Shown here piece after piece: positions 12,890 through 64,000 of a DNA stretch of 64,000 bases. The notes under the pieces are model-generated. The model was not told where the DNA came from. It saw nothing but the letters and a program-made list of their open reading frames with translations, and did no database searches. The stretch comes from Azorhizobium caulinodans ORS 571 (GTDB taxonomy: Bacteria > Pseudomonadota > Alphaproteobacteria > Rhizobiales > Xanthobacteraceae): the NCBI RefSeq assembly GCF_000010525.1, contig NC_009937.1, positions 1,803,501-1,867,500 of the forward strand. Reading direction: 5' to 3'. Both the position numbers and the translations under genes were made by a program. Positions within the stretch are counted from its first letter, which is position 1, and every line of letters starts with the position of its first letter.

Positions 12890-14593
12890 TCAGTTCCGAA
12901 GAGTCATGCAGTCGAATTTGTTGCGCTCGAGTAAACGGCAGGCCTCTTTCGCATCCTTTTCCGTGAGACCGGCAAAGCGGGCGCGGTAAATGTCGCTGCG
13001 GCCCTTCTCCACCTTCTCCGTGTAGGGATCGGCGCTCTTGAGCAGCTTGCCGGCCTTGCCGCGGGCGGCGTCGAGCTGGGAGCGGGCTTCCTTCTCGCCG
13101 CCGAAGGCGCCGATCTGGATGATCCAGCCCGAGCGGGGCGGCGCGCTGCGCGGCGTCGCGACAGGTCCCGTGGAGGCGACGCGGACAGGCTTGGGAGCGG
13201 GCGTGGTGGCGCTCGCCACCGTAGCGGCCGGAAGGGCGACGGGAGCGGCCGAGGCGGTGCGCACACCATGGGCGACCGGCGAGGTCTCACGCTCGGGGGG
13301 AGGGCCCATCAGCAGGTCGCCGGGAGGAGATTCCATGTCGGACTGGGCGGCGGCGGCGGACTGGGCGGGCAGATAGCCCAGCGTTCCGGAGGGCTGGCCG
13401 CTGAAGGTGGGCGCCGGCATCTGGTTGCTGCCGGGACGGGCGATGGTCGTGGTCCGCACAGCCACCGGCTTGATGGGCTCGGCGGATCCCGGCGTCGGGG
13501 CGCGCACCGGCGCGACACTGGCGGTGGTCACCGGATCGGCGGCGGCATAGGCGACGCGCTGCGGCGGCGGCAGCGGGGCCACGGCCTGCGCGGGCTCGCT
13601 CTGGCGGGCCGCGACCGGAATGGGCATGGGGCGCGGCGCCGGCTCGTCGTCGCGCTGGGCGGTCTCGATGACCTTCGGCGCAACGCGGCCTCCCGCATAG
13701 GCGCGCGGCAGGTTGGAGGTGAGGATGCTGGCCATGCGCTGGTCGCGCGAGCTGGCGCTGGAGCCGCCGAGCACCACGCCCACGAGGAAGCGGTCGTCGC
13801 GGTGCAGCGAGGTCACCAGATTGAAGCCGGACGCGTTGGTGTAGCCGGTCTTGATGCCGTCCACGCCTTCCATGCGGAGCATCAGGCGGTTGTGGTTGCC
13901 GATGGTCTCGCCGCGATACACGAAGGCGCGGGTGGAGAAGTAGCGATACTCCCGCGGGAAGCGGTCCTGGATCGCCCGGCCGAGGACGGAGAGGTCGCGC
14001 GCGGTGGTGACCTGGCCGGGGTTGGGCAGGCCGGAGGCATTGCGGAAGGTGGTGTTGCTCATGCCGAGCGCGCGCGCCTTGCGCGTCATCATCTCGGCGA
14101 AGTTGGATTCCGTGCCGCCGATGGCTTCGCCGATGACCACGGCCGCGTCATTGGCCGAGCGGGTGACGACCGCCTTGATGGCGTCCTCCACCTCGATGGT
14201 GGAGCCCGGACGCAGGTTGAGCTTGGTGGGCGACTGGGACGCCGCATGGGCGGAGACGGGCAGGTCGCTGTCGAGCTTGAGCCGGCCGGCCTGAAGCTGC
14301 TCGAACAGCATGTAGAGGGTCATGATCTTGGTGAGGGAGGCAGGATGCCGCAGGGAGTCGGCATTCTCCTCGTAAAGCACCTTGCCCGTGTTGCCATCCA
14401 CCACGATGGCCGCCGTGCCGCGCTTCCAGCCGGCATATTCATCGCCGCCCGAGGAGCGGGAGGACGAGGACTGCGCGGCGCTCCGCGACTTCTTCGGCTT
14501 CGCCTCGGCTGCTGTTGCCGTCACCGCAAGGGCCGCCACGAGGGCGGCCGCAAGCCACTTTCGGGTGAGAGAGGGGCCGAGCGCAAGGGTCAT
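12890..14593 (-). CDS. D-alanyl-D-alanine carboxypeptidase (S11) with SPOR domain
   Basis: Periplasmic penicillin-binding protein that trims the terminal D-Ala from peptidoglycan stem peptides; 567 residues from the ATG at 14593. Signal peptide (KWLAAALVAALAVTATAAEA), then a Ser/Lys-rich patch, then the S11 domain with S86-L-T-K89, S146-A-N148 and K248-T-G250. A disordered Pro/Ala/Thr-rich linker of about 160 residues (about 325-485) leads to a SPOR domain (489-567, GWIIQIGAFGG onwards), which binds glycan strands lacking stem peptides at division sites. The upstream in-frame extension to 14779 is not protein-like. It is divergent from the phasin gene. Confidence 0.9.
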   Translation of the reverse strand: MTLALGPSLTRKWLAAALVAALAVTATAAEAKPKKSRSAAQSSSSRSSGGDEYAGWKRGTAAIVVDGNTGKVLYEENADSLRHPASLTKIMTLYMLFEQLQAGRLKLDSDLPVSAHAASQSPTKLNLRPGSTIEVEDAIKAVVTRSANDAAVVIGEAIGGTESNFAEMMTRKARALGMSNTTFRNASGLPNPGQVTTARDLSVLGRAIQDRFPREYRYFSTRAFVYRGETIGNHNRLMLRMEGVDGIKTGYTNASGFNLVTSLHRDDRFLVGVVLGGSSASSRDQRMASILTSNLPRAYAGGRVAPKVIETAQRDDEPAPRPMPIPVAARQSEPAQAVAPLPPPQRVAYAAADPVTTASVAPVRAPTPGSAEPIKPVAVRTTTIARPGSNQMPAPTFSGQPSGTLGYLPAQSAAAAQSDMESPPGDLLMGPPPERETSPVAHGVRTASAAPVALPAATVASATTPAPKPVRVASTGPVATPRSAPPRSGWIIQIGAFGGEKEARSQLDAARGKAGKLLKSADPYTEKVEKGRSDIYRARFAGLTEKDAKEACRLLERNKFDCMTLRN

Positions 14594-60084: not shown

Positions 60085-62265
60085 TCAGATGTGGGCGCGC
60101 AGGCTCAGGAGGTAGGTGCGGCCCTGGCCCGTGTCTCCCGAGAAGCCGGTGGGCTGGATGGAGAGGGCAGGGGTGTAGTTTTCATTGAGCAGGTTCGTGG
60201 CATCAAACCGGAACGTCAGCTTGTCGCTGACGGCGTAGCTGCTGAACAGATCGACGATGTTGTAGGCGGGTGAGGGCGTGGAGCTGACCGTGCCGAGGAA
60301 GCTGGCGTTATAGGCCAGCGTCTGCCCTTCCGACACATAGGTGTAGCGGCCGCCGACGGACAGCTTCTCCTCCAGGAAGCGCAGGCCCGCCGAAACGGTC
60401 ACGATGTCCTCCGGCAGATACTGATTGGCGCCGAAGCCCTGTGTCTGCGCAGGCAGGTCGTTGGTATTGTGCGTGTAGGTCAGGTCCGCGAAGACCTTCC
60501 GGGCATCGTAATGGGCCTCGAATTCCACACCGCTCACGGTGGAGGTGCCTGCCACGTTGCAGAAATAATACTGCGTCTTTCGACAGGTGACGATGTAATT
60601 GTCGATGTCGTTCGTGAAGTAGTCCGCCTTCAGGCGCAGCTGATCGTTGGCCGTGAAGATGCCGTTCCGGCGGATGTTGACGCCGAATTCCCAGCCCTTC
60701 GAGACCTCCGGCTGGAGATAGGGATTGGCGGAATAGCTGACGCTCGTGCCGGGATGCTCGCCGCCGATCATGGTTTCCGAGGCGGTCGGCGCGCGCATGG
60801 TTTCCGCATAGGTCACATACGGCTGCAGCCAGTCGAACGGGCTGATGGCGAAGGTGACCTTCGGGTCGAAGCGGCCCTTGTCCTGATCCACCGTCCATGG
60901 ACCCACGGGCACCGCGCCGCCCATGGAGTTCTCATATCCGGAGCCGTTCAGGTTGAAGAAGTCGTAGCGCAGGCCCACGATGAGTTCGAAGATGGAATAG
61001 TTGAACTTGGTCTCGTCGAACACGCCGCCGATGGCGCTCGTGCCGGCCGGGTTCACGCCACCATAGAGCGAGGGCGTCACCGTGTTGGTGCTGCTGACAT
61101 CGTCATAGAAATATTCGGCCCCATAGGTCGTGGCGACGGCCACCTGACCGAGCAGGAAGCGCGAGGTGTTGGAGGTGTCGAAGCCCCAGCCTCGGTCGTC
61201 GATCACCCGGCCGCGATACGAACTCGTGGTCGCCGGCACATTGCCGTAGACCATCTTGAGGTCGTTCAGATAGGCGTTGAGGCGGAAGTCGATCCAGTCG
61301 TTGCCCGGCGTATAGCTGTAATTGCCGGTGAAGGTGTTGTTGCGCACGTGCTGATCGGCGGAATCCGCATAGAAGAAATTGTTGTAGAAGACGGCGCCGA
61401 GTTTCAGGCGGGAATCGTCCGTGAGCTTCATATCCGCCTTGAGCAGGCCGGACGTGAGGTCCTGCCCGGTATAGGGCACGGTCTGTCCGTCACCGTTCTT
61501 GTAATTGCCGGTGTCGCGGGTCGCTACCGCGCCGCCCACCGCGAAGCGGTCGTTCATGCGCACGGCGCTGGCCACCATTTCCTGCCAGCCCTGCCCGTTA
61601 CTGCCCCACTGGACATTGGCGATGGCGCCCCATGTGCTGCCGGGTTTGATGATGTCGTCGATGCCGAGCGTGCGCATGTTGACCGCTCCGGCCAGCGCGC
61701 CGGCCCCGCCTGCGGTGCTGACCGCCCCGCGGGCGATATCCATGCCCGCCAGCAGCTGGTCGTCCACATAGGTGAAGCCGCCCGCCTCGTGCCCGACGAA
61801 GCGGAAGTTCTGGCGCACCCCGTCGATCATCATGTTGACGCGGCCCATCCCCTGGAAACCGCGAATGTTGACCGCAACGCCGGGGTTCGAGGTGCTCTGG
61901 GTGGTGAAGGTGCCGGGCACGGAACGCAGCACATCGTCGAGCCGCTCATAGTCGCCGGGACTGTTCAGCAGGTCTACGCTGCTGACGGCCGCCGGCGTCG
62001 CATAGGGATCGCCGAACAGGCTGTTGCCCGCGTCATTGACGCTGATCGTGGGCAACGCCTGCTGGCTGTCGCCGCCTGTGGCGCCATTTACATTCCCTGC
62101 GGGCGCTGTAGCCGTGGCGGGTGTGCTGCGCGCACCGCTGGCGGCCTGCTGCGCGAGCGCGGGGGCGGCGGCAAGGAGGGTCGCCAGGGAGATGCCGATC
62201 ATAAGTGATTTATTGATCAATATAAGCGCGTGCTCTGCGCGGGCCATGTCGTGCATGCGGGCCAT
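60085..62265 (-). CDS. TonB-dependent hemoglobin/heme-type receptor
   Basis: 726-residue outer-membrane receptor. Signal region ends ATLLAAAPALAQQ; the plug has DDVLRSVPGTFTTQS and VNIRGFQGMGRVNMMIDG; the barrel has YAETMRAPTASETM, like the FRAP box, and NPYLQPEVSKGWEFGVN, like the NPxL box of the heme receptor family; it ends GRTYLLSLRAHI. This fits the HmuR/BhuR/hemoglobin group more than siderophore receptors. The ATG at 62265 has GGAAAG upstream and is preferred over 62343. It follows an AT-rich leader with palindromes. No heme ABC importer or heme oxygenase is present nearby. Confidence 0.85.
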   Translation of the reverse strand: MARMHDMARAEHALILINKSLMIGISLATLLAAAPALAQQAASGARSTPATATAPAGNVNGATGGDSQQALPTISVNDAGNSLFGDPYATPAAVSSVDLLNSPGDYERLDDVLRSVPGTFTTQSTSNPGVAVNIRGFQGMGRVNMMIDGVRQNFRFVGHEAGGFTYVDDQLLAGMDIARGAVSTAGGAGALAGAVNMRTLGIDDIIKPGSTWGAIANVQWGSNGQGWQEMVASAVRMNDRFAVGGAVATRDTGNYKNGDGQTVPYTGQDLTSGLLKADMKLTDDSRLKLGAVFYNNFFYADSADQHVRNNTFTGNYSYTPGNDWIDFRLNAYLNDLKMVYGNVPATTSSYRGRVIDDRGWGFDTSNTSRFLLGQVAVATTYGAEYFYDDVSSTNTVTPSLYGGVNPAGTSAIGGVFDETKFNYSIFELIVGLRYDFFNLNGSGYENSMGGAVPVGPWTVDQDKGRFDPKVTFAISPFDWLQPYVTYAETMRAPTASETMIGGEHPGTSVSYSANPYLQPEVSKGWEFGVNIRRNGIFTANDQLRLKADYFTNDIDNYIVTCRKTQYYFCNVAGTSTVSGVEFEAHYDARKVFADLTYTHNTNDLPAQTQGFGANQYLPEDIVTVSAGLRFLEEKLSVGGRYTYVSEGQTLAYNASFLGTVSSTPSPAYNIVDLFSSYAVSDKLTFRFDATNLLNENYTPALSIQPTGFSGDTGQGRTYLLSLRAHI

Positions 62266-62656
62266 GGGTTCTTTCCAAAAAGCTGCGTGGCCGCCGCAGG
62301 CTCCCCGTCCCATGGCGCCGAATGACGACGATTCCACCACCAATCGTCACTGCACCTGTAAAATGCCAGCGAATTGACGAGTCAATGAGATGTAATTGCG
62401 TTTGTATTTATAACTGTTTCAGTGTCACGTTGAATTTGTATGAATTACATTTCGCATGAGTGTTGGTGGGCAATGTTTTATAAGCAAATGACCTTAGGTA
62501 ATTCTTATCGAATTTCGGCTTTGTGGATTTAGACGCATTCAAGCCGGTGTCGATGTCACCGTGCACCTGTTGCGCGCGTGCCACATCATCCGCATAGGCG
62601 TCTGGCAAGCCGTGTTGGGGCCAAGGCTGCTTCTTCTGCGGAAGGACAGGAGGGGC
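62266..62656 (-). promoter_or_regulatory. AT-rich leader of the heme-type receptor with palindromes
   Basis: This spacer is strikingly AT-rich compared with the genome. It holds the palindrome ATTGACGAGTCAAT (62373-62386), the inverted pair ATGTAATT/AATTACAT (62390-62397 and 62443-62450), and AATTC-N5-GAATT (62500-62514). A weak iron-control-like TTTAGACGCATTCAAGC occurs at about 62528-62544. No gene is seen. It probably drives the receptor, since dusA lies upstream and ends before it. Confidence 0.5.
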
Positions 62657-63673
62657 TCAGCCCTCCGTTCCCGTCCGTGTGCCATCGTCCTTCGCGAGGG
62701 GGCGGCGGATGGCGGCAACCGCCTTGCGCAGCACCTCAAGGCCCGCGCCGGGCACGAGCGCTTCCGTCGCCAGCGTGCGGCGATAGGTGCGCGCGCCCGG
62801 GCGACCTCCGAACAGGCCGAGCATGTGGCGGGTGATGTCGTGCAGCCGCCCGCCCGCCTCCAGATGCGCGGCGATATAGGGCTCGAAGGCGGCGATGGCC
62901 TCGAAGGCGTCCGCATGGGGCGGGGTCTCGCCATGCACCTGCGCATCCACTTCCAGCAGCAGGTCCGGATCCTGATAGGCGGCGCGGCCCAGCATCACGC
63001 CGTCGAGGCCGGCACCGGCCGCGCGGGCGTCTTCAAGGGTGACGAGCCCGCCGTTCAGTTCGATGGGCACGTGGGGCAGGCGGGCCTTGAGACGATGCAC
63101 GCGATCATAGTCGAGCGGCGGGATCTCGCGGTTTTCCTTCGGCGAGAGGCCCTTCAGCCAGGCCTTGCGGGCATGCACGATAAGGCGCGCGCAGCCGGCC
63201 GCGAGCACGGCATCCGCGAGCGCGTCCAGGGCTTCCTCGACGTCCTGATCGTCCACACCGATGCGGCATTTGACGGTGACGGGAATGGAAACGGCGGCCC
63301 GCATGGCGGCGACACATTCGGCCACCAGCGCCGGATCGCGCATGAGGCAGGCGCCGAAATTGCCGCCCTTCACTCGATCGGAGGGACAGCCCACATTGAG
63401 GTTGATCTCGTCATAGCCGAAATCCGCGCAGATGCGCGCGGCCTCCGCCAGAAGCGCGGGATTGCTGCCGCCAAGCTGCACCACCACCGGGTGCTCGGCC
63501 TGCGAATAGCCAAGCAACCGCGCCCGGTCGCCATGGATGATGGCCGGGGCCGTTACCATCTCCGTATAGAGCCACGCCCGCCGCGACAGGGTGCGATGGA
63601 AGGCCCGGCAGTGGCGGTCCGTCCACTCCATCATGGGGGCTATGGAAAAGCGAAAATTTTGTTCGGTGGGCAT
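62657..63673 (-). CDS. dusA: tRNA-dihydrouridine synthase A
   Basis: FMN enzyme that reduces uridines in the D loop of tRNAs, 338 residues from the ATG at 63673. APMMEWTDRHCR (12-23) and the FMN-binding QLGGSNP are conserved; C96 in NVGCPSDRVKGGNFGACLM is the catalytic cysteine; the length and GGNFGACLM favour DusA over DusB or DusC. The upstream in-frame extension to 63781 is AT-rich and not homologous. The 5' end of dusA is a known integration site for mobile elements, and an integrase relic lies directly upstream. Confidence 0.93.
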   Translation of the reverse strand: MPTEQNFRFSIAPMMEWTDRHCRAFHRTLSRRAWLYTEMVTAPAIIHGDRARLLGYSQAEHPVVVQLGGSNPALLAEAARICADFGYDEINLNVGCPSDRVKGGNFGACLMRDPALVAECVAAMRAAVSIPVTVKCRIGVDDQDVEEALDALADAVLAAGCARLIVHARKAWLKGLSPKENREIPPLDYDRVHRLKARLPHVPIELNGGLVTLEDARAAGAGLDGVMLGRAAYQDPDLLLEVDAQVHGETPPHADAFEAIAAFEPYIAAHLEAGGRLHDITRHMLGLFGGRPGARTYRRTLATEALVPGAGLEVLRKAVAAIRRPLAKDDGTRTGTEG

Positions 63674-63755
63674 TATTTTTATAACTTCAAGGAATTGGGT
63701 CTTGTCGTGTGCACTCGATTTTTCGCCACGATACGCCCCGATTTCCGATTTTCGA

Positions 63756-63780
63756 CGTGTGTGTGCACATGGAGCGCACA
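63756..63780. repeat. Inverted repeat upstream of dusA
   Basis: CGTGTGTGC (63756-63764) and GCGCACACG (63772-63780) pair over nine bases with one G-U, loop ACATGGA. It lies between the dusA start and the integrase relic and may be a regulatory site or part of the island boundary. Confidence 0.5.
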
Positions 63781-63820
63781 CGGATTGGCTACCCTCACTA
63801 AACTAAAATCCGACTCCTGA

Positions 63821-64000
63821 AGAGGCCATATCCGTCGGAGGGGGCAGTACGTCAACGAGACGTTCCTGCGTCGCAAGGATGCCGAGGAGTGGGTGCTCGA
63901 CACGGAACGCCGCATCGATCGCAGGAACCCGCCGTCACGCGCAGGTCGCACGACGCGAAACGCTTCCGTGGCACCGTCGCGTGAGTGTGATGGTCTCCGT
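63821..64000 (+). pseudogene. Frameshifted tyrosine-recombinase (integrase) N-terminal relic
   Basis: No start codon: after an in-frame TGA (63818-63820) the frame reads GHIRRRGQY, then FLRRKDAEEWVLDTERRID, the N-terminal DNA-binding arm found in phage-type tyrosine integrases. From about 63922 the similarity continues in another frame as QEPAVTRRSHDAKRF, then a stop at 63982-63984, so the copy is decayed or has a frameshift. It runs off the end of the window. Its place directly upstream of dusA fits the known dusA-targeting integrase group. Family assignment rests on pattern memory of about 35 residues and could be wrong. Confidence 0.55.

Follow-up and report, generated by a model that had tools for sequence, protein, structure and literature searches.

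The 5' end of dusA and its neighbour

The window, the whole stretch of 64,000 nucleotides that was analysed, corresponds to C1:1803501-1867500 of the Azorhizobium caulinodans genome, a single contig of 5.37 Mb. Close to its right end lies an intact dusA, and the closest named relatives of its product belong to Xanthobacter (76%), a genus of the Xanthobacteraceae in GTDB. Divergent from dusA, starting 112 bases from its start codon, is the broken beginning of a tyrosine integrase, and a noncoding module fills the space between the two (Table 1). The first-pass annotation had described a frameshifted relic of an integrase N terminus within 150 bases of the dusA 5' end, set in a locally AT-rich stretch, and these observations are borne out: G+C content is 0.515 at 63600-63799, compared with 0.665-0.745 for windows within dusA. 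No tandem repeats were detected at 62000-64000.

Table 1. Features at the dusA 5' end, in window coordinates
Feature	Position	Strand	Basis
dusA, tRNA-dihydrouridine synthase A, intact, 338 aa	62657-63673	minus	Pfam Dus PF01207, 4.9e-83
Conserved attachment core TCCATCATGGGGGC, inside dusA codons	63627-63640	plus	lies in the segment duplicated at the far ends of relatives' elements
Element-derived noncoding module, 111 bp, from dusA to the integrase start	63674-63784		identity to G019
GTGTGCAC motif 1	63707-63714	plus	10 of 10 relatives scanned, at most one mismatch, same position
GTGTGCAC motif 2	63761-63768	plus	site present in 10 of 10 relatives scanned, on either strand
GTGTGCAC-type motif 3, one mismatch	63774-63781	minus	present in 9 of 10 relatives scanned
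Relic of a dusA-type tyrosine integrase, ~65 N-terminal residues	63785-63981	plus	tblastn with the G019 integrase
Junction: end of homology to an intact element, unrelated DNA beyond	63981-63982		pairwise alignment with G019

The relic was compared with the integrase of G019, a genome of another genus in which an open copy of 353 aa adjoins dusA (Phage_integrase, 3.4e-22). Residues 1-49 of that protein align to 63785-63931 with 78% identity and residues 47-66 align, in a second frame, to 63922-63981 with 85% (tblastn, E 3.6e-22). The reading frame is damaged by an in-frame TGA at 63818-63820, by a one-base gap near 63921 that shifts the frame, and by truncation at ~63981, where the number of matches to G019 in every 20 alignment columns drops from 16-20 to 5-9. 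With its stop, frameshift and truncation, the relic falls short of the intact integrase of a dusA-specific island. An intact copy past the window, which the first-pass annotation had proposed to look for, did not turn up: when the whole 5.37-Mb genome was searched with the integrase, the sole close match was the relic itself (E 1.9e-18, with one TGA inside), beside a distant match (24%) at C1:934870.

The module is 88% identical to its counterpart in G019, and 60% and 41% identical to those of G001 and G002, both members of the same genus as Azorhizobium caulinodans. This pattern of identity, together with the variable loci of relatives described below, indicates that the DNA upstream of dusA is element DNA and not a constant part of the host. 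For the relic the values are 88% and 91%; conservation of the module thus does not exceed that of the broken integrase gene, and its sequence carries no sign of special selection. In 28 aligned rows, losses stop at or past the final ~20 bases of this module, except for a small internal gap in G135, a pattern that is biased because most rows were found using the module sequence itself. These are 28 of 31 rows, G001, G002 and G000 (the Azorhizobium genome itself) being left out. The element rows resemble dusA codons 2-9 (63650-63669) poorly (0.45-0.47), so the exact boundary between host and element is uncertain; judged from these alignments, it may lie to the right of the attachment core. As to replacement of the dusA 5' end, the upstream module is element DNA, but the first dusA codons are unlike the element rows.

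By analogy with a published dusA element (PMC8409611), we presume that the module holds both the present promoter of dusA and the former promoter of the integrase, and it would very likely still drive dusA. A consensus scan of the module detected no sigma-70-type promoter, and its single-strand fold is not unusual in comparison with shuffled sequences (z -1.0). Matches to GTGTGCAC number 3-5 per module in four modules versus 0.07-0.09 in shuffles of single bases, a count in which a palindromic site may score on both strands. The relatives in which the motifs were scanned were 10 hand-picked ones. The three GTGTGCAC-type sites are candidate integrase arm sites or a candidate operator.

The dusA locus across the family

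A query of positions 63690-63985 found matches in 67 of 391 family genomes, Azorhizobium itself included, some of them over only ~70 bases. The 30 best-matching loci (29 new ones, among them Azorhizobium's own, and L012) contain dusA within the stretch covered in 27 cases. The integrase is open and of roughly full length (352-381 aa) in eight, broken or partial in 13, including Azorhizobium, and undetected in six; three are left unclassified, as their match ends at most ~210 bases from a contig end. Several loci with open, full-length integrases show 85-90% DNA identity to the query. G058 and G210 retain the module (88% and 85% identity to G019), and their integrase part is unrelated.

A second sample, picked by likeness of the DusA protein and made up of the best 80 of at least 589 loci, is free of the bias of a module query, yet not wholly independent of the first sample, since L098 is apparently the same record as G007. 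It contains the module with an integrase at five loci, the module without a nearby integrase at three (at one of which, L102, the match spans just 39 bases), a nearby integrase without a recognisable module at 10, and neither at 62. The first-pass annotation had set an island against the case in which all relatives share one sequence upstream of dusA and neither repeat nor cargo follows beyond 64000. No repeat and no recognisable cargo were found there, as set out below, but the upstream sequence does vary, as those 62 of 80 loci attest.

We surveyed 30 regions of 7 to 77 kb for a recurrence of the dusA 5' segment (attR); given these lengths, absence of attR means little except for the Azorhizobium genome. 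Second copies (E <0.001) occur in four of the 30, at 24.0 kb in G234, 25.3 kb in G019, 42.1 kb in G128 and 54.2 kb in G002, where the copy measures 41 bases at 93%; G283 has a weak one at 24.9 kb (E 0.55). G019, G128 and G002 (364 aa) have open integrases, and that of G234 aligns from residue 21 only. The element of G019 (G019:C1:92059-117653, L035-L036) is 25.3 kb long and has a DUF3363 relaxase adjoining its open integrase. Past its attR lies the decayed start of a second integrase, indicating that insertions succeed one another at this site in a stacked manner; tandem insertion at dusA is on record (PMC8409611).

The first-pass annotation had also advised comparison with the empty site in relatives. 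Neither of the two same-genus genomes offers one, as both hold other occupants. G002 has an integrase of a different type, which shares 35% identity with the G019 protein. G001 carries an ORF of 127 aa with 73% DNA identity over ~90 bases and no protein match at 1e-8, probably a relic of its own. Hence the native upstream sequence of the genus is not seen directly, and the three members examined, with the Azorhizobium scar, the probable relic of G001 and the element of G002, differ at dusA.

At five loci (in G145, G276, G193, G249 and G003) likeness to the element ends near one and the same point of the integrase, equivalent to window positions ~63828-63860; this point might be one at which breaks are preferred. 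G003 (L038) has its integrase start split between C6:265-482 and 13613-13878, and two copies of some 40-60 bases enclose ~13 kb of genes that mostly look metabolic; this resembles an insertion within the integrase gene, or else a junction of a second kind. Across the family, the dusA site displays two-ended elements, stacked insertions, relics, and loci with the ~100-bp module alone.

DNA beyond the relic and the search for a second end

The first-pass annotation had suggested that cargo might follow beyond the window and that an attR be looked for there. The genes from 64100 on encode a DUF4114 protein, a polysaccharide deacetylase, a GntR/FCD regulator and a solute-binding protein, and further on a 592-aa protein without a Pfam match followed by HlyD and ABC-2 proteins; next come, as judged by eye, a second HlyD-like protein, an MscS-like protein and a P-type ATPase. 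No mobility genes were recognised in the ~16 kb past 64000 (by Pfam for the first genes, by eye for the later ones), and G+C content, at 0.63-0.72, is ordinary for the neighbourhood. This stretch (G000:C1:1867500-1883643, window 64000 to ~80143) is not syntenic with G001, G002 or G019, and conservation with G001 and G002 picks up again at window coordinate ~80143. Compared with 198 loci at E 1e-30, the genes of the 16 kb give matches of 31-52%, except for the deacetylase (81% over 64 residues, in G001), and the gene after them, a HAD-type one that borders the conserved block, gives 54-55%. At the same cut-off the P-type ATPase is the only one of them with a match in relatives' dusA regions, and that a distant one (37% in G087, 34% in L126). 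Cargo running from attL to attR was not found; the 16 kb hold neither recognised mobile genes nor clearly shared cargo.

Searches for a repeat of the dusA 5' end gave nothing convincing, either in the 135 kb past the window or in the whole genome, although an attR that had diverged beyond the search patterns would have escaped detection. The best repeats of 63500-64000 over those 135 kb are 12-17 bases long (E 1.2), and a 23-base pattern of the dusA 5' end, with up to three mismatches allowed, has no second site genome-wide. The 14-base core has one further match in the genome, at C1:3508948, within an unrelated coding sequence. Its strand fits an attR as it would lie after rearrangement, but it is inside an ORF of 749 aa with no dusA-like sequence around it, and we regard it as a chance match. 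This ORF presumably encodes a membrane pyrophosphatase. Two weak candidates, 21 bases at ~64347 and 15 bases at ~95510 in window coordinates (both E 0.54), were likewise taken as chance.

The yajC-secD genes lie upstream of dusA in G001 (~19 kb), G002 (~66 kb) and G019 (~32 kb); they were not seen in the dusA regions of the remaining relatives, which represent other genera and mostly span 20-40 kb. In Azorhizobium the counterpart of this G002 flank is found 1.45 Mb away from dusA, at C1:3309275-3319694 (minus strand). Since these genes sit so far off and on the other strand, the scar lies at a rearrangement junction. A simple inversion explaining both ends is not supported: G001 and G002 carry different DNA to the left of the block that starts at ~80143. 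DNA of G002 a few kb further out maps to C1:2240542-2245748 in the Azorhizobium genome, and the DNA past the displaced flank scatters over several places in G001 and G002. Such shuffled flanks mean that several rearrangements took place, and the junction at the scar is not necessarily due to the element. A genome-wide search for repeats of the junction DNA returned none except one 31-base match, and no insertion sequence was found there.

Probable origin and fate of the scar

We consider it highly probable that the locus is the scar of a lost dusA-specific element, later brought beside rearranged DNA, with the module left on dusA. Under this interpretation a dusA-specific element with a tyrosine integrase would have entered the 5' end of dusA, and its attachment arm would have supplanted the native upstream region, a step for which we rely here on the origin of the sequence and, for the mechanism, on published work. 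The integrase would then have decayed through the nonsense codon, the frameshift and the truncation at ~63981, the rest of the element and its attR, neither of which was found in the genome, would have been lost, and chromosomal rearrangement would have set unrelated DNA against the scar, the genes upstream of dusA in relatives ending 1.45 Mb off. What remains would be inert as a mobile element, and excision as a circle is not expected since attR and integrase are missing, while the 111-bp module would very likely go on driving dusA. A broader claim, that domestication of the module is a regular outcome in the family, the module persisting long past the integrase because dusA depends on the foreign promoter, and that the scar may end at a rearrangement junction, we advance only tentatively, leaning somewhat against it.

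The proposal of the first-pass annotation, the edge of an island integrated at dusA, survives in that element-derived DNA, 88% identical to G019, does lie beside dusA; no island follows it. An extant island would have the scar as its edge and would carry the ~16 kb between 64000 and ~80143 as cargo. That stretch begins directly at the scar and finds no syntenic counterpart in the three genomes compared, as an island would; but with no convincing attR, no intact integrase of the dusA type and no recognised mobility genes, a G+C content that matches the neighbourhood, a far end where gene order differs between G001 and G002, and a distant P-type ATPase as all that relatives' dusA regions share with it, we judge a surviving island very unlikely.

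Hardly more probable, and still improbable, is that the module and the integrase start alone were acquired by homologous exchange from the dusA locus of another strain, the full element never having been present. Modules without a detectable integrase are common (six of the 30 best loci, three of the 80 chosen by DusA), and exchange of flanks could spread them. Within the genus, however, the probable relic of G001 and the 54-kb attR-bounded element of G002 argue that direct insertion happens at this site, and the abrupt right end at 63981 suits deletion or rearrangement equally well. That this is an ordinary host upstream region which resembles an integrase by chance can be practically dismissed: no evidence in its support was found, and the genome-wide E value of the relic and the 85-90% DNA identity to loci with open, full-length integrases both contradict it. 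The scar of a lost element thus remains our preferred reading.

The scar resembles the dusA-specific islands and prophages of Farrugia et al. 2015 (PMC4482086) in the location of its integrase, by the 5' end of dusA, and in a conserved attachment sequence within that gene. Insertion of those elements gives dusA a new 5' end along with putative promoter sequences; in Azorhizobium the upstream module is element-derived. Unlike them, Azorhizobium has an integrase that is a relic, and neither attR nor cargo was found, so that it presents a scar and no island. One dusA element, from Vibrio, drives dusA expression from its own promoter (PMC8409611). IMEVchUSA3 of Vibrio excises and is mobilized (PMC8409611), whereas Azorhizobium keeps only ~310 bases of its element. 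The G019 element is 86% identical in DNA to the scar over the dusA end, the module and the integrase start, and differs in possessing an open integrase, a relaxase and attR. The kind of element and the donation of dusA promoters and 5' ends by islands are known (PMC4482086, PMC8409611); modestly new is a module that outlasts its element, for which a narrow search, covering part of the literature on dusA elements, found no account.

As a scar the locus is fairly ordinary, and it is of some interest because the upstream DNA of the element remains joined to dusA. At this known integration hotspot, many stages of turnover are found within one bacterial family. If the module controls dusA after loss of the element, mobile elements would have lastingly rewired a housekeeping tRNA-modification gene.
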